Positions 2,427 to 39,547 of a DNA stretch of 64,000 nucleotides are shown here, in pieces. Both the position numbers and the translations under genes were made by a program. Location of the stretch: NCBI RefSeq assembly GCF_000379765.1, contig NZ_KB903454.1:248001-312000 (forward strand), given 5' to 3'. The notes under the pieces were generated by a model that was not told where the DNA came from, made no database searches, and worked only from the letters and a program-made list of their open reading frames with translations. This DNA is from Flexithrix dorotheae DSM 6795. GTDB taxonomy: Bacteria > Bacteroidota > Bacteroidia > Cytophagales > Flammeovirgaceae. Numbering within the stretch: position 1 is the first letter of the stretch; each line of letters opens with the position of its first letter.

Positions 2427-3848
2427 ATGTTTAAAACGTTAGACAAATTTCTATTGAAAAAATTCGCAGGTCCTTTCGTCCTTACCTTTGCGGTATTATT
2501 GTTTATTTTCCTTTCCCATTCCATGATCCTCAATTTTAAACACCTCATGGGAAAAGGACTGGGTTTTGAAATTTACCTGGAATTGTTCTTTTATTTCTCT
2601 TTGGTACTGACTCCCCTAACTTTACCCTTATCCGTTCTTTTAGCTTCTCTTATGGCCTTTGGAGGTTTAGGAGAACATGGAGAATTAAACGCTATAAAAA
2701 GTGCAGGAATTTCACTTCCAAGAATTCTGATGCCCATATCTCTTATCATCATTTCAATCACTGTGGCGGCCTTTTTTTTCAATGATCAAATTGCACCCTG
2801 GGCCAATTTAAAAACCTATAATCTCTTGTACGATGTGAGGCATAAAAAGCCAACACTGGAATTTAAACCCAATACTTTTTATTACGATTTACCCAGGTAC
2901 CGAATTAAAGTAGAAAATAAATCCGGGCCTGGTAATGAAGTTCTGGAAGGAATCATGATCTATGATCATACCCAAAAAAAGGGCAATTCTCAATTGATTA
3001 TGGCCAAACATGGCACCATGAAAATAACAGGTAATTTCCTTGAACTGATACTGGAAAGCGGAAATATTTATGCAGAAAAACCTGATCAACAACTAAACAC
3101 TTCCGAATATTTCTGCCAGAATTTTGAAACTGCCAACTTTAGGTTTAGTCTGGATTCCTACGGATTTAAAGAAACACAAGAAGAACTTTTTAAATATAAC
3201 AACAACACAAAAACAACTCGCAAACTTATTGCTGAAAAAGATTCTATAAGCATGGCCAATCAATCTTATAGCGCCAACTTAAAAGATTCAATTCTTCCTA
3301 TTTTCGTATCAAAAGAAAAGAGGGAAGACAGCCATAAGCAGATTGCTTTCCAACAGCTCGGAAAAGCAAAAATTAATTCCCAAGTCAGGTTAAACAAATT
3401 AAATGAGTTTGTAGAAATTGATAAAAAACAGGTCCAGCTCCTCAACAACTATAAAATTGATATTTATAAAAAATTCACCAAATCAGTGGCTGTTTTTGTG
3501 ATGTTTCTGATTGGAGCCCCCTTAGGAGCTATCATCAAAAAAGGAGGATTGGGACTGCCTGTACTCATTTCCATTATCTTTTTTGTCATCTTTTATATTT
3601 CTACCATTATTGGAGAAAAATATGCCAAAGAAATGATTCTGAGTCCTGAAACAGGATGCTGGCTGGGGAATGTAATCTTATTAGGTTTTGGGCTATTTTT
3701 CCTCCGACAAGCCAAAAGAGATGCCCGGCTTTTTGATACAGATTTTTATTTGGTGGTTTTCAGTAATTTTTGGGAGAAGGGGAAGATTGTTTTATCCAGC
3801 TTATCCAAGTGGCACAAGATTACAAAGAAAGGGAAATCTGCGACTTGA
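2427..3848 (+). CDS. LptF/LptG (YjgP/YjgQ) family permease, copy 2
   Basis: This 473-residue permease has the same six-segment LptF/LptG layout as the preceding gene and is very similar to it. Long blocks are nearly identical, for example GKGLGFE, IKSAGISLPRIL, KKPTLEFKP and LIGAPLGAIIKKGGLG. It lacks the roughly 100-residue Lys/Pro-rich insert of copy 1, so its periplasmic domain has a more usual length. By family it should partner LptB in lipid or LPS export. Neither LptB nor LptC is in the window. A long hairpin follows the gene. The start ATG at 2427 aligns with the start of copy 1. Confidence 0.88.
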   Translation: MFKTLDKFLLKKFAGPFVLTFAVLLFIFLSHSMILNFKHLMGKGLGFEIYLELFFYFSLVLTPLTLPLSVLLASLMAFGGLGEHGELNAIKSAGISLPRILMPISLIIISITVAAFFFNDQIAPWANLKTYNLLYDVRHKKPTLEFKPNTFYYDLPRYRIKVENKSGPGNEVLEGIMIYDHTQKKGNSQLIMAKHGTMKITGNFLELILESGNIYAEKPDQQLNTSEYFCQNFETANFRFSLDSYGFKETQEELFKYNNNTKTTRKLIAEKDSISMANQSYSANLKDSILPIFVSKEKREDSHKQIAFQQLGKAKINSQVRLNKLNEFVEIDKKQVQLLNNYKIDIYKKFTKSVAVFVMFLIGAPLGAIIKKGGLGLPVLISIIFFVIFYISTIIGEKYAKEMILSPETGCWLGNVILLGFGLFFLRQAKRDARLFDTDFYLVVFSNFWEKGKIVLSSLSKWHKITKKGKSAT

Positions 3849-33363: not shown

Positions 33364-33834
33364 ATGGGCAAAATTCATCATTATTCTCAAAAAGTAAAAT
33401 GGACAGGAAACCTGGGTAAGGGTACTTCATCATACAGAGATTATGACCGGGAATATGAAGTAGAAGTACCTGGGAAACCGACTATTCAAGGTTCATCAGA
33501 TCCCAGCTTTCTTGGCGACCCTGGCAAATACAATCCGGAAGATTTATTGGTTGCTTCACTTTCATCCTGCCATCTGTTATGGTATTTACATTTGTGTGCG
33601 GTAAATAAAATTACTGTCACCAGTTATGAAGATTTTCCAGAGGGAATAATGGAAGAAAACGAAGATGGAAGCGGGCAATTTGCTGAAGTAACCCTGAAAC
33701 CCAAAGTCATTATATTAGAAGAAACCAAACTAGACCTTGCCCGTCAACTTCATCAAAAAGCCAATAATATGTGCTTTATCGCCAGGTCAGTCAATTTTAA
33801 GGTTATGCATAAGCCAGAGATAATCGTTAATTAA
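33364..33834 (+). CDS. OsmC-family peroxiredoxin-like protein
   Basis: This 156-residue cytoplasmic protein belongs to the OsmC/Ohr family, thiol peroxidases for organic hydroperoxides. The two conserved cysteines are present: C69 in ASLSSCHLLWYLH and C137 in NNMCFIARSV, with the preceding GKYNPEDLLVA. Cytoplasmic localisation follows from the absence of any signal. A terminator follows, shared with the tRNA genes. Confidence 0.87.
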   Translation: MGKIHHYSQKVKWTGNLGKGTSSYRDYDREYEVEVPGKPTIQGSSDPSFLGDPGKYNPEDLLVASLSSCHLLWYLHLCAVNKITVTSYEDFPEGIMEENEDGSGQFAEVTLKPKVIILEETKLDLARQLHQKANNMCFIARSVNFKVMHKPEIIVN

Positions 33835-33877: not shown

Positions 33878-33878
33878 G

Positions 33879-33950
33879 TACTCCGTAGGGGAATCGAACC
33901 CCTGCTACCAGGATGAAAACCTGGCGTCCTAACCCCTAGACGAACGGAGC
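33879..33950 (-). tRNA. tRNA-Glu (anticodon TTC), copy 2
   Basis: The 72-nt cloverleaf on the minus strand has acceptor GCTCCGT/ACGGAGT, anticodon stem CCAGG/CCTGG around loop TTTTCAT with anticodon TTC, T arm CAGGGGTTCGATTCCCCTA, and discriminator A. It lies 31 bases downstream of an identical copy. Confidence 0.97.
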
Positions 33951-33981
33951 TAAATGCTATGTTTATGTTCCAAAAAAAATG

Positions 33982-34053
33982 TACTCCGTAGGGGAATCGA
34001 ACCCCTGCTACCAGGATGAAAACCTGGCGTCCTAACCCCTAGACGAACGGAGC
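33982..34053 (-). tRNA. tRNA-Glu (anticodon TTC), copy 1
   Basis: Identical in all 72 bases to the tRNA at 33879-33950 and probably made on the same precursor from the promoter at 34068-34098. No CCA is encoded. Confidence 0.97.
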
Positions 34054-34184: not shown

Positions 34185-34730
34185 TTATTTTTCACCTTTT
34201 CCCCATCTCCACACGCTATCAATATCTATGTGCTCGCTAAATTCTGTTCCAAAAAATGATTCCACAATATTTTGGTTTTCATCAATCAAAAAATCAGCAG
34301 GTAAAAGGGACTCTCTTGGCATGGAATCAAAACTAAAAAAGCCACTGCCCATCATTTTCATCATCATCTTCATGTTCCCCATAGTTTTCAGCATTCCCTT
34401 AGTAGAGCTTTTAATCATATAATCTTTGTAGATATCTCTACCGGCATCAGGAATAATAGGAAATGGAGGGTTTTGTTTACCTGCATACTTTTTTATTTGT
34501 TGGGCTGAAGAGGCAAAAAGCACTAAAATCTCTACACCACTTTTTTTAAGTTTTTCAGCATTCCTAATCAATAACTGCATTCTCATATTACAGAAAGGAC
34601 ATGAAGCATATCGAAAAAAAGTTAACAAGACCTTTTTTCCTTTATAGTCTGCAAGTGAAATAGCATTCCCTAAATAATCCTGAGTTTCAAAAGGGATGGC
34701 CTTTTGATTTTTAAAAGTGATCGTTTCCAT
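34185..34730 (-). CDS. Peroxiredoxin-like thioredoxin-fold protein
   Basis: This 181-residue AhpC/TSA-type thioredoxin-fold protein belongs to the peroxiredoxin-like group. The active site is FFRYASCPFCNMRMQL, with C44 and C47 as a CxxC rather than the TxxC of classical peroxiredoxins. There is no signal peptide, so it should be cytoplasmic. A methionine-rich stretch (about 115-130, KTMGNMKMMMKMMGSG) is unusual. It lies 106 bases after the AraC gene on the same strand and could be part of that transcript or its target. Confidence 0.82.
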   Translation of the reverse strand: METITFKNQKAIPFETQDYLGNAISLADYKGKKVLLTFFRYASCPFCNMRMQLLIRNAEKLKKSGVEILVLFASSAQQIKKYAGKQNPPFPIIPDAGRDIYKDYMIKSSTKGMLKTMGNMKMMMKMMGSGFFSFDSMPRESLLPADFLIDENQNIVESFFGTEFSEHIDIDSVWRWGKGEK

Positions 34731-34836
34731 TTTTTCATTTTTGATGATTACTCAAAATTATTTGGAAAGGGAAATCGAAGATAGGACAAGAGGTTCAATT
34801 TTTTGAACATTAAGTTCAGAGTGGCTGGCTGAAAGT

Positions 34837-35673
34837 TTATTTCGTTCTGTATTCGGAAGGAGAAATTTTAAAGTGGGACTTGAATAATCTGGAAAAGTGA
34901 GCAGAATCCTGAAATCCCACTTTATAGGCAATGTCTCCTATGGAAAGAGGGGAAATTTTCAGGAGTTCAGCAGCTCTTTCCAATTTTCTTTTTTTGAAAT
35001 AATTGGCCGGAGTATCATTATAGACTTTTTTAAATGTTCTTTTGAATGAAGATTCACTTAAGTGGGAAAGCATTGCCAGTTTTTCTATGGTAAAAGGCCC
35101 GTAAAGGTGGCTCTCTATCACAGTTTTGAAGTTCACCTCCAAGGGAGAAAACATAGTAGCTATCAATGCCTTTATTGAATCAGCATATTGGGTTTGAATA
35201 AGCAACAGAACCAGTTCCTTTATTTTTAATTTTAGCAGTTCCTGATTAACCAAATGGGGATTTTCAAAATAAAACTCAAGGCTTTCTATAAATTTTTGAA
35301 TTACCGAGTGGGAAGCCAGTTTTTGAATTCGACTGGCCCCTACCCCATTCTGATTAATAAATTCCGGAATTTCATTTTGATAAAGTTGTTTGAGGATTTC
35401 CGGATAAAAATGGATGGCATAAATTTTACAATACCCTGCTTCCTTAAATTTCAACCACTCTACGAAATAACTTCCGCACTTTAAAAGCACAGATTCTTTT
35501 GAGTTTACATTTTCCCGTTCATGAGCTGCATTAAAGTGCGTTTTTCCATTTTCCACATACACAAAACAAGCCTCTTCCTCAAAAAAGGCCTGATAGACAA
35601 AGGGCGGTTCAATGATTAATTTTTCAATCAGGCATTTTTCTCCAATGTCAAATTTTTGCCTACTTACAATCAT
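34837..35673 (-). CDS. AraC-family transcriptional regulator
   Basis: The protein has 278 residues. The C-terminal about 100 residues hold the two helix-turn-helix motifs of AraC/XylS regulators: FTIEKLAMLSHLSESSFKR (about 195-213) and ISPLSIGDIAYKVGFQDSAH followed by FSRLFKSHFKISPSEYR. The N-terminal 170 residues are a sensor domain of no recognised type, without a clear cupin motif. The gene starts 13 bases after the transglutaminase stop, which suggests co-transcription and a role in regulating the ATP-grasp/transglutaminase unit. Confidence 0.87.
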   Translation of the reverse strand: MIVSRQKFDIGEKCLIEKLIIEPPFVYQAFFEEEACFVYVENGKTHFNAAHERENVNSKESVLLKCGSYFVEWLKFKEAGYCKIYAIHFYPEILKQLYQNEIPEFINQNGVGASRIQKLASHSVIQKFIESLEFYFENPHLVNQELLKLKIKELVLLLIQTQYADSIKALIATMFSPLEVNFKTVIESHLYGPFTIEKLAMLSHLSESSFKRTFKKVYNDTPANYFKKRKLERAAELLKISPLSIGDIAYKVGFQDSAHFSRLFKSHFKISPSEYRTK

Positions 35674-35686
35674 TTTAATCAGCTTT

Positions 35687-36559
35687 CTAGATCCTTTTCA
35701 TATCTACCTCCACATTCATCTTATGTTTTCCACTGCTGTAAATTACACCCTTAAATGGCGTGATATCAAGGTAATCTCTCCCATAGGCTACCGTCACATG
35801 TTGTTCTTTGGGAATTTGATTATTTGTTGGGTCAAAATCCAGCCAGCCAAAACCAGGACTAAAAACCGAAAGCCAGGCATGAGAGGCATCAGCCCCTTCG
35901 AGTTTTTCCTCCCCTTCCGGAGGAATAGTTTCAATATAGCCACTTACGTATCTGGCTGCTAAACCCATGGAGCGGACACAGGCTATGGCAAACTGTGCAT
36001 AATCCTGGCAGACACCTTTTTTATGTCTGGCGACTTCATGCAAGGGCGTAGTGACAGAGGTAAACCCGGGTACAAATTTGAAATCCTTAAAAATTCTCTG
36101 GGTTAGCTCAAAGGCAGCTTCTAAAACCGGCCTTTCATCCCAAAAAGATACTGCTGCATATTCTTGTATTTCCTGAAAAGGGTGAATTAAGGGAGAGGCA
36201 AACACGTATTGTTTGGCATCGATTACTGCATCCTCCTTTGAAGATACCAAAATTTTCCGAACCTCCTGGCAATTTGGACTCTCACTTAAATTTACCGGAA
36301 GATTCGGGATTATTTCCACTTCACTTTTTGTAACTACTTTCAGTTCTTTATGTGGCTCCTGTATACTGAAATAAGCCGTTCTATTTCCAAAAAAATCTAT
36401 TCTTTCATCAAAATCCATGGGATTGGGTTCCACTGAAAGTTCGTATTTCAAACAATTTTGATTAGGCAGATTTCTCGGAATCATCTTCGCTTCATTATAA
36501 CAAAGATTGACAATTCCACCATACTGGTAAATTGTTTTGTGCGTAACTTGAAATTTCAT
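35687..36559 (-). CDS. Transglutaminase-like protein with bacterial N-terminal domain
   Basis: The protein has 290 residues. The N-terminal part (about 1-90, starting MKFQVTHKTIYQYGGIV) is the bacterial transglutaminase N-domain. The core (about 145-250) has the Cys-His-Asp triad: C184 in KKGVCQDYAQFA, H227 in DASHAWLSVF and D243 in WLDFDPTNN. These proteins may act as proteases or amide-exchange enzymes. The start overlaps the end of the ATP-grasp/alpha-E gene by 4 bases, so they are translated together. This gene pair recurs in many bacteria and is predicted to make or modify a peptide, but no product is known to me. Confidence 0.88.
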   Translation of the reverse strand: MKFQVTHKTIYQYGGIVNLCYNEAKMIPRNLPNQNCLKYELSVEPNPMDFDERIDFFGNRTAYFSIQEPHKELKVVTKSEVEIIPNLPVNLSESPNCQEVRKILVSSKEDAVIDAKQYVFASPLIHPFQEIQEYAAVSFWDERPVLEAAFELTQRIFKDFKFVPGFTSVTTPLHEVARHKKGVCQDYAQFAIACVRSMGLAARYVSGYIETIPPEGEEKLEGADASHAWLSVFSPGFGWLDFDPTNNQIPKEQHVTVAYGRDYLDITPFKGVIYSSGKHKMNVEVDMKRI

Positions 36560-39135
36560 ATTTCAGGATCTATTGTTAGGCCAGTTAACTGTTGTTGGAT
36601 TTGTGTATGACTGAAATAATTTTGGATAATGACCATAGCAGTTTCATTTAACAAATCTCCTGAATGGCCCAAAAGTGTGTCTAATTTTTCCCTTACAAAA
36701 GTTTCCTTTTCATATTCTGCGAGCTTCTCAGGCTCTGCCAACCGAATATTGGTAAAACCTTCTAACACCAGCTTTTCCTGTTTATCCAATACAGGTCCGG
36801 AGGTAATTTCGGGAAGCCTTGCCGTGTATATTTGCAATTTTTCAAATTGAAAAGCAAGTGATTTTGGATAATGTTTATCCATTAAAAGTAACTCAAGAAC
36901 AAATGGCAGATAAAACTTTGATTTATATCTTGACCTGTAATTGTCCAATCCCTCATGCAGATTCAATAATGATTCCTGTAAGGTAGATTCTACCTGTTCA
37001 TCAAAGCAGGGGACCAGCATGGTTCTCATAGTAGAGACAATGGATAATCCCTGTTCTATTCGCCTACCTATTTGCAAAAGAAACCATCCCATTTCCCTTT
37101 GCATATTTTCTGCATTTAAACCTACAAAAGCCACCAGGTTAGTAATAATATGATCTAATAATATCTGAACTTTACGTAACCTGATTTGTTTATTGCCAAT
37201 GGCAGACTCCCAATGCAATTCCACATTTTCAATCAACCGCCAGGTATCTTTTGCCCACTGATCTCTCACAGCAAAAATGTTATTTTTAAGAAAGATCAGA
37301 TTCGAAGCAAGTGATCCAATTCGTTTGGTACTTAGTGCCACCGATAACAATTCCCTTTCCGGATATTTAAACTTCCCTTCAGCCCCTTTACCTACAAAAC
37401 CGGGATAAGTCATGGTGAGATGGGTTAAAGACCTGAGCAGACATTTTAATTCTTCTGATTCAATAGCATCTTTACCAGATATTTTATTTTCATTAAAATT
37501 CTGTAAAACAATACGCAATATCCTGGCAGTATACAGGCTCCTTTCTAAATACCGACCTACCCAAAAGAGGTTCTCTGCTGTTCTACTGGATAGGGCATTA
37601 TTTTCCCTGGCAAACACTACAGGAGTCTTCTTTTTCTTATTTGGAGAGGATAATTTTATACCTTCATTTTTTATATCTTCCATTACCCAGGTATCCTTAC
37701 TTACACCTCCCAACTGGTTGGAAACAAATGAATCCTCCATGGAAGATGCACTTCGGGTAAGTCCACCGGGCATCACTGAATAGCCCTCCGAAGAAGCAAA
37801 AGAAAAGGTTCTTAAAACAGTATACCTAGGTTCAAGAATCCCCTTAACAAAAGATGGAGAGGTAGAAAAACTTACCTGCTGTTGTCCTATGTATAGTTTA
37901 GGGTTCGCCAGTATTTTCTGTTTTAAATTTTCGATTTCCACTTCATTCAATTTTGAACCAATTACCGACTGCATATTCATTCCCCTGTCAATTGCCTTAA
38001 TAATAAACTTGGGAATGTTTTCCAGTACATAATTTAATTCCTTTTCCTGTCCACACCACCAAGTAGCCGCTGACGGTAAAATCAGCTCTTCATCCAGAAA
38101 AAACTTGCAAATTCCAGGAAGAAAAGCCATTAATCCGGGATTTTCCAAGACACTACTTCCCAAAGGGTTCACTACAGCCACATTTTTCTGCCGGATTACA
38201 GATAGCAGCCCAGTAATACCCAAATGAGAATCAGGACGCAGCTCCAGTGGGTCACAGTAAGTATCATCTACCCTTCTCAGGATAATATCTACTTTCTCCA
38301 AACCTCCAAGTGTTTTTAACCAGACGTAGTTATTTTTTACCATTAAATCACTTCCCTGCACCAGCCTAAACCCAAGCTTTGAAGCCAAATATGCATGTTC
38401 AAAATAAGTTTCATTATGATAGCCGGGAGTCAAAACAACGGTTCTTGGATTTTCCCGGGAATTATAAACCAGATTACTGAGGTTTTCCGGAATATTTCTG
38501 AAGTAATTAGACAACTTCTGGACATTAATTGGCCTGATAAAATCAGGGATCACCCTTAGCATTGCCGAGCGGTTCTCCAACGAGTACCCAGCTCCGGAAG
38601 GGGCCTGAGTGCGGTCGTTAATCACCCACATTCTTCCATCAGGTCCTCTGGCCAGGTCGCATCCATGTATAATCAGTTGCTGACTTCCCGGGAACCTGAT
38701 TCCATCACATTGCCGTAAAAATCCACTGTGGGTATAAATAAGGTCAAGGGGTAAAAGCTTTTCTTTAATTAAAAGTCTTTGCCCGTATAAATCGGATAAA
38801 ATAAGATTGAGTAATCTGGCCCTTTGCTGTAGACCTTTTTCAATAATTTGCCAGTCCTGATTTTGGATAATCAGGGGAATAAGATCCAGTTCCCAGGGCC
38901 TTTCCATGCCCTGGTTTTTATTGTAAACATTATAGGTTACTCCATTCTCTCTTAATACCGCATTTAACTCTCGTTGTCTTCCTGCCAATTCTTCCGCAGA
39001 AAGTGCTTTTAAAACATCATAGAAATGCATCCAATGAGGCCTTATTTCTCCCTTAGCGGTCATCATTTCATCATAAGAATATAATGATGATGCATAATTT
39101 TGTAAGACCTCTACATTCCTGGCTTCAACCTCCAT
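36556..39135 (-). CDS. Circularly permuted ATP-grasp / alpha-E domain fusion
   Basis: The protein has 859 residues. The N-terminal about 480 residues match circularly permuted type 2 ATP-grasp proteins (old DUF404/DUF407): CDGIRFPGSQQLIIHGCDLA, then GPDGRMWVINDRTQAPSGAG, LTPGYHNETYFEHAYLA and VNPLGSSVLENPG. From about 510 to 840 is the alpha-helical alpha-E domain (DUF403), beginning SSRTAENLFWVGRYLERS. In many genomes the two domains are separate genes; here they are fused. ATP-grasp enzymes of this class are predicted amide-bond ligases. With the transglutaminase it forms a compact cytoplasmic unit whose substrate is unknown. Confidence 0.88.
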   Translation of the reverse strand: MEVEARNVEVLQNYASSLYSYDEMMTAKGEIRPHWMHFYDVLKALSAEELAGRQRELNAVLRENGVTYNVYNKNQGMERPWELDLIPLIIQNQDWQIIEKGLQQRARLLNLILSDLYGQRLLIKEKLLPLDLIYTHSGFLRQCDGIRFPGSQQLIIHGCDLARGPDGRMWVINDRTQAPSGAGYSLENRSAMLRVIPDFIRPINVQKLSNYFRNIPENLSNLVYNSRENPRTVVLTPGYHNETYFEHAYLASKLGFRLVQGSDLMVKNNYVWLKTLGGLEKVDIILRRVDDTYCDPLELRPDSHLGITGLLSVIRQKNVAVVNPLGSSVLENPGLMAFLPGICKFFLDEELILPSAATWWCGQEKELNYVLENIPKFIIKAIDRGMNMQSVIGSKLNEVEIENLKQKILANPKLYIGQQQVSFSTSPSFVKGILEPRYTVLRTFSFASSEGYSVMPGGLTRSASSMEDSFVSNQLGGVSKDTWVMEDIKNEGIKLSSPNKKKKTPVVFARENNALSSRTAENLFWVGRYLERSLYTARILRIVLQNFNENKISGKDAIESEELKCLLRSLTHLTMTYPGFVGKGAEGKFKYPERELLSVALSTKRIGSLASNLIFLKNNIFAVRDQWAKDTWRLIENVELHWESAIGNKQIRLRKVQILLDHIITNLVAFVGLNAENMQREMGWFLLQIGRRIEQGLSIVSTMRTMLVPCFDEQVESTLQESLLNLHEGLDNYRSRYKSKFYLPFVLELLLMDKHYPKSLAFQFEKLQIYTARLPEITSGPVLDKQEKLVLEGFTNIRLAEPEKLAEYEKETFVREKLDTLLGHSGDLLNETAMVIIQNYFSHTQIQQQLTGLTIDPEI

Positions 39136-39547
39136 TTTTATAGTTATTTATTGTCGTAATAAAAGTTGTTTGTGTTCAGATTTTGACCTAAACAAACTGA
39201 TTTAAACTATCCATTACTGAAGTCTTAAATCAGAGACTAAATGCTAATATAATCAATAGCAGATTATGATTTATTTATATTCAGGAATTGTTTTAGAAGA
39301 ATTGCAATAATAATTTCTCCCAAACTCAGAGAAAACTATCCACATAAAAAAAAGAAAGGTAAAGTCTTAATTCTGAAATAATTACCACATTTGGAGAGTA
39401 GTAACCTCAATTCCCATTATATAAAAAAGATGCTCCGGGCAGGATGCCCCGGACAGCATTCACCAGCAGAGGCTGCGTTTTCGCGACCTTGCTTGGAAAA
39501 AGCGTTTTTGGGATACATTGGGAATTGCTGAAAAGTAAAACGAAAAC
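39136..39547. other. Intergenic region with GC-richer segment and terminator
   Basis: These 412 bases lie between two minus-strand genes. The part 39136-39415 is plain AT-rich and should hold the promoter of the ATP-grasp gene. The segment 39425-39540 is visibly richer in G and C, with GCAGAGGCTGC and GCGTTTTCGC inverted repeats, and includes the terminator at 39424-39456. It may be a degraded repeat. Confidence 0.5.
39424..39456 (-). terminator. Terminator downstream of the SprT-like gene
   Basis: On the minus strand TGCTGTCCGGGGCA pairs with TGCCCGGAGCA (small bulges, loop TCC) and is followed by TCTTTTTT. It is the most GC-rich hairpin in the window, about 90 bases after the stop codon. 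Confidence 0.7.

Follow-up and report, generated by a model that had tools for sequence, protein, structure and literature searches.

A probable pseudo-ATP-grasp/Alpha-E fusion of Flexithrix dorotheae as a likely non-ligating part of an amidoligase system

The window analysed here, a stretch of 64,000 nucleotides from Flexithrix dorotheae DSM 6795, carries a protein in which a circularly permuted (CP) ATP-grasp domain is fused to an Alpha-E domain, followed by genes for a transglutaminase, an AraC-family regulator and a peroxiredoxin-like protein. Does this locus form amide bonds on its own, or does the ligating enzyme lie elsewhere? Identifying the catalytic subunit decides what to assay in a widespread system. 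We consider it fairly probable that the locus supplies that part of a five-protein amidoligase system which does no ligation, namely a pseudo-ATP-grasp/Alpha-E protein and a transglutaminase-fold enzyme with a Cys-His-Asp triad, and that its partners lie on another contig (C2).

Gene content of the locus

A sequence-only reading of the window had listed four genes, and both their layout and the union of ATP-grasp and Alpha-E in one polypeptide were confirmed by open reading frames and Pfam domains (Table 1). On a single ORF, residues 87-463 match CP_ATPgrasp_2 (1.7e-147) and residues 515-841 match Alpha-E (7.5e-56). The fusion and transglutaminase ORFs overlap by 4 bp, the AraC gene follows after 13 bp (35674-35686) and the peroxiredoxin-like gene, whose CxxC motif reads C-P-F-C, after a further 106 bp. 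The hairpin between the SprT-like gene and the putative operon is consistent with a separate transcription unit, hairpin counts as a whole being close to the shuffled expectation. Just downstream of the peroxiredoxin-like gene lie two tandem tRNA-Glu (TTC) genes (33878-34053, minus strand) with a terminator-like hairpin beside them (33877-33847), and an OsmC-like gene on the plus strand (33364-33834), convergent with the peroxiredoxin side, is a second thiol-peroxidase-type gene nearby.

Table 1. Features of the locus, in window positions; those of codons 173-175 and 386-389 were computed from codon numbers.
Feature	Position	Strand	Basis and remarks
CP-ATP-grasp/Alpha-E fusion	36556-39135	minus	859 aa; ORF and Pfam
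Codons 173-175 of the fusion	38611-38619	minus	N-D-R, E-D-N in split paralogues; alignment
Codons 386-389 of the fusion	37969-37980	minus	M-N-M-Q, Gly-rich loop G-G-Y-G in split paralogues; alignment
Small transglutaminase	35687-36559	minus	290 aa; Bact_transglu_N and Transglut_core (Pfam)
AraC-family regulator	34837-35673	minus	278 aa; ExsA_N and HTH_18 (Pfam)
AhpC/TSA peroxiredoxin-like protein	34185-34730	minus	181 aa; C-P-F-C; AhpC-TSA (Pfam)
Conserved 68-bp block, candidate regulatory region	39227-39294	minus	83.8% identity to same-genus relative
Terminator-like hairpin 3' of upstream SprT-like gene	39434-39453	minus	hairpin scan

The small transglutaminase has an intact Cys-His-Asp triad (C184/H227/D243), invariant in 24 homologues. 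In one paper, protease activity is reported for Rv2569c of M. tuberculosis. The Alpha-E domain repeats a G-R-x-x-E-R/Q motif (window 36556-37599). Its two halves matched each other in hhalign (E 3.4e-6 within the fused form, 2e-12 for the first half of split Alpha-E against the second half of the fused one, unrelated controls giving 0.003 to 0.44), which suggests an internal duplication. Modelled alone (pLDDT 89.6), Alpha-E had no counterpart in Foldseek at E<=0.001; its best VIA-align likeness (Z 10.2) was within the range expected of helical bundles, and a new fold is not supported by these searches.

Fold and residues of the ATP-grasp domain

The predicted model of the fusion (pLDDT 82.6), with a predicted pseudo-ATP-grasp part at about residues 20-487, is most like 3n6x (Z 40.2), followed by glutathione synthetases (Z 22-24) and Cp1B (Z 20.6). 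The matches to 3n6x and the glutathione synthetases mean that a glutathione-synthetase-like fold is kept. The residues within it are another matter. In an alignment of 84 fused rows from Bacteroidota with 33 rows of split paralogues, N173 of our protein stands for the Glu and R175 for the Asn of the E-x-N motif. The fused rows have N (86%), H or others at position 173, never the consensus Glu, and R at 175 throughout (100%), whereas the split forms invariably have E and N (100%) and G-G-Y-G (100%, 33/33). Two positions that never vary among split forms, D440 and N472, have become V/M/L and S, respectively, in the same 84 fused rows. A per-residue table of 51 fused rows gave N, H, G or S at 173. 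The same loss with other replacements was seen in fused proteins of Azospirillum, Granulicella, Caballeronia, Burkholderia, Sinorhizobium and Sphingomonas; those of Proteobacteria and Acidobacteriota carry S, A or H at 173 and in some cases H at 175. Every fused protein examined thus lacks the E-x-N motif and the Gly-rich loop. In contrast, 3n6x keeps E-D-N, G-G-Y-G and the split-form residues at 440 and 472, its alignment (33% identity) being ungapped there.

The structural relative Cp1B, whose residues were mapped to the fusion by motif and not by residue alignment, depends on its E-x-N pair: Ala substitution of R139, D141, E163 or N165 abolishes or reduces activity (PMC12568646). Release of phosphate from ATP has been reported for the split ATP-grasp encoded in the Anbu operon of Yersinia (PMC6376114). 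The correspondence with E. coli GspS is by motif only, its E-Y-N having landed some two columns away in the MAFFT alignment. A Pfam scan of the fusion found no N-terminal amidase domain like that of glutathionylspermidine synthetase, and the E-x-N expected of such an enzyme is lost from the fusion as well. In a tree of 43 ATP-grasp rows, in which GspS forms a very long branch, the split forms group together (support 99/99); the fused forms likewise require one change, with support of only 64/68. In the Pfam text for CP_ATPgrasp_1, fusion to Alpha-E is reportedly given as frequent among inactive forms.

The domain is not decaying. Against the same-genus locus L016, dN/dS was 0.018 for the ATP-grasp part, 0.022 for Alpha-E, 0.028 for the transglutaminase, 0.076 for AraC and 0.087 for the peroxiredoxin, ratios that are approximate because synonymous sites are near saturation; at about 0.02 the ATP-grasp domain is under strong purifying selection. 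The sequence thus shows a fusion that keeps its fold and is under strong selection but no longer has E-x-N, the Gly-rich loop or two other residues that are constant in split forms; it is probably a conserved pseudo-ATP-grasp. The sequence-only reading had named loss of the catalytic residues as what would speak against its fused ligase, and it is this loss that the sequence alignment revealed; the 859-residue polypeptide is thus probably not the ligase.

The loss of known residues could still be compatible with activity, and Arg175 and K/R380 could support another chemistry. On a rival reading, the fused protein would be a working ligase or phosphotransferase whose active site has been rebuilt, for instance with Arg175 and with a charged loop taking over from the Gly-rich one. 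This would agree with the low dN/dS, with the many pocket residues that are invariant or have been kept (D160 in most rows, P179-S180-G181, R442, G476-G477 and K480-D481) and with a fused-specific W-W-C-G-Q-E-K-E (359-366), invariant or nearly so. We nevertheless regard this reading as unlikely. Neither E-x-N position retains its residue, nor do the loop, D440 or N472, and the replacements differ in Proteobacteria and Acidobacteriota, a pattern more in keeping with a relaxed constraint on catalysis than with a single new chemistry. The literature yielded no biochemical work on any fused protein.

Distribution and partner genes

Fusion of CP-ATP-grasp to Alpha-E is known from Bacteroidota, Acidobacteriota and Proteobacteria. 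A scan of genome contigs yielded 80 loci, nearly all carrying full-length fusions, and at 72 of them a large transglutaminase (~1110 aa) lies directly 5' and a small one directly 3', so that the usual order is [transglutaminase-DUF2126]-[fusion]-[transglutaminase]. Six more have the small transglutaminase with upstream sequence that is too short, and at two (L017, L021) neither transglutaminase adjoins the fusion. The fusion, initially read as a special feature, is the ordinary state of its family and not peculiar to this genome, while the view that relatives of the cluster are widespread and predicted to perform amide ligation was borne out, as far as membership goes, by domains and by occurrence in several phyla.

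Two loci deserve mention on their own. At L183 (genome G412) the run of transglutaminase-DUF2126, fusion and transglutaminase genes is directly preceded by a glutaminase gene (2448-3383), which may hint at glutamine or nitrogen metabolism. L182 (3544-5829, genome G282) encodes a 761-aa protein with a C-terminal Alpha-E preceded by about 400 residues without Pfam match; a transglutaminase follows it, and by Pfam it is no ATP-grasp fusion. The 844-aa Alpha-E frame of G282 was rejected as an ATP-grasp fusion.

Where, then, is the large transglutaminase of F. dorotheae? The genome (9.5 Mb, 101 contigs, 99.3% complete) carries on contig C2, at 504-511 kb and not adjacent to the window genes, a split ATP-grasp (497 aa), a split Alpha-E (319 aa) and a transglutaminase-DUF2126 protein (1119 aa) composed of Bact_transglu_N, Transglut_core and the DUF2126 "putative amidoligase". 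Rv2566-type proteins have been placed in the carboxylate-amine ligase superfamily (PMC2588565). In genome G013 of the same family, all five genes (for split ATP-grasp, Alpha-E, transglutaminase-DUF2126, the fusion and the small transglutaminase) adjoin one another and point the same way, and the window operon therefore looks like a detached half of such a run.

Among 194 genomes sampled from the order, 28 have the fusion, and 27 of these also have DUF2126, on a different contig from the fusion in nine genomes; the same 27 have a second, split Alpha-E match, which in some drafts is a fragment. All fusion-bearing genomes of the phylum sample (9/9) have DUF2126. The Fisher tests of this co-occurrence ignore phylogeny and shared ancestry. 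Going by these domain matches, the fusion almost always occurs alongside a DUF2126 amidoligase and alongside ATP-grasp and Alpha-E in split form, and this near-obligate pairing of pseudo-ligase and amidoligase is a testable partner prediction. The sole exception, G012, is an incomplete MAG and the only other genome of the genus; it has neither DUF2126 nor split Alpha-E although it is 84% complete, which counts against the partner reading.

In the proposed system, amide bonds would be formed by the C2 proteins, through the split ATP-grasp, the DUF2126 domain or both. The fusion, having no catalytic role, may bind the substrate, present it or regulate its use, and the small transglutaminase may hydrolyse or transfer the amide-linked group. 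Rather tentatively, we suggest that the conserved pseudo-ligase may be an obligate non-catalytic partner or substrate platform of the DUF2126/split ATP-grasp machine, with its own AraC in this genus. Expressed by itself, the window operon would probably give no product, whereas one would be expected from the C2 proteins, whether or not the fusion is added. A likely setting would be nitrogen scavenging or remodelling of a peptide or protein modification. The split cluster is under NtrC/sigma-54 control in B. cenocepacia (PMC5491218) and more highly expressed on nitrate than on ammonium in P. putida (PMC8050072); by analogy this points to nitrogen limitation, the evidence coming from split clusters of Proteobacteria and not from the fused form. 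Against the proposal stands a pull-down in which Anbu served as bait and the proteins of the Yersinia Anbu operon formed no stable complexes (PMC6376114).

Regulation and relation to known systems

AraC and peroxiredoxin genes are linked to the fusion only here and in the same-genus relative (L016/G012), and the other 79 loci have no linked redox gene. Both the redox link and the idea of a dedicated regulator are therefore weak, and membership of the peroxiredoxin in the amidoligase system is not supported. It is possible, if somewhat doubtful, that AraC controls the peroxiredoxin downstream of it rather than the ATP-grasp and transglutaminase genes, the pair merely standing behind the operon in this genus. 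The two genes do stand side by side in each of the two genus members, and in no other genome; close AraC homologues elsewhere adjoin varied genes with no common target gene family, several having one small co-directional gene of varying type close behind. Against this, AraC lies much nearer to the transglutaminase, on the same strand, than to the peroxiredoxin, and the 68-bp block that precedes the fusion is better conserved than the saturated synonymous sites. As a check, AraC binding sites upstream of 39135 had been suggested; repeat and copy searches, whose outcome speaks for the peroxiredoxin reading, defined no operator there: the best direct repeat in the block was no better than in shuffles (P 0.86), the genome holds no further copy at up to 3 mismatches, including upstream of the C2 cluster, and nothing convincing was found as a motif common to the block and the C2 upstream region. 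On balance, AraC probably controls the detached half in this genus.

What remains of the original proposal of a self-contained, inducible, redox-linked operon whose peptide is made by the fused ATP-grasp? Gene order and the CPFC motif would fit, but with the ligase residues lost, the catalytic-type partners on C2, outside the window, and redox genes confined to the genus, we judge it very improbable. Its amide-ligation part stands as system membership and probably falls for the fused polypeptide as ligase. The stated absence of a proteasome-like protease held genome-wide: the only Proteasome-family match is HslV (NCBIfam), a whole-genome search with Klebsiella Anbu as query found nothing, and the Pfam Proteasome model does detect the real Klebsiella Anbu.

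Among solved structures, 3n6x, a putative glutathionylspermidine synthase of Methylobacillus flagellatus, shares the fold and 33% identity over residues 20-487, and differs from the fusion in its kept motifs and in having no Alpha-E. The Anbu operon (ATP-grasp, alphaE, transglutaminase, Anbu) has homologous ATP-grasp, Alpha-E and transglutaminase proteins; unlike it, F. dorotheae has no Anbu and a fused, residue-depleted ATP-grasp. The CP-ATP-grasp/Alpha-E/transglutaminase/DUF2126 system of Iyer et al. 2009, as far as it is cited in PMC5666114, comprises domain types that all occur in this genome, with the usual order of fusion and small transglutaminase; here, however, they are divided between two loci, with AraC and peroxiredoxin attached in the genus and no Anbu. 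Also close are the fused "circularly permuted type 2 ATP-grasp" proteins of Granulicella, Caballeronia, Sinorhizobium and Sphingomonas: while their operons have no AraC or peroxiredoxin, and those of Granulicella and Caballeronia have the large transglutaminase directly before the fusion, all share with F. dorotheae the fusion itself, its residue losses and the adjoining small transglutaminase.
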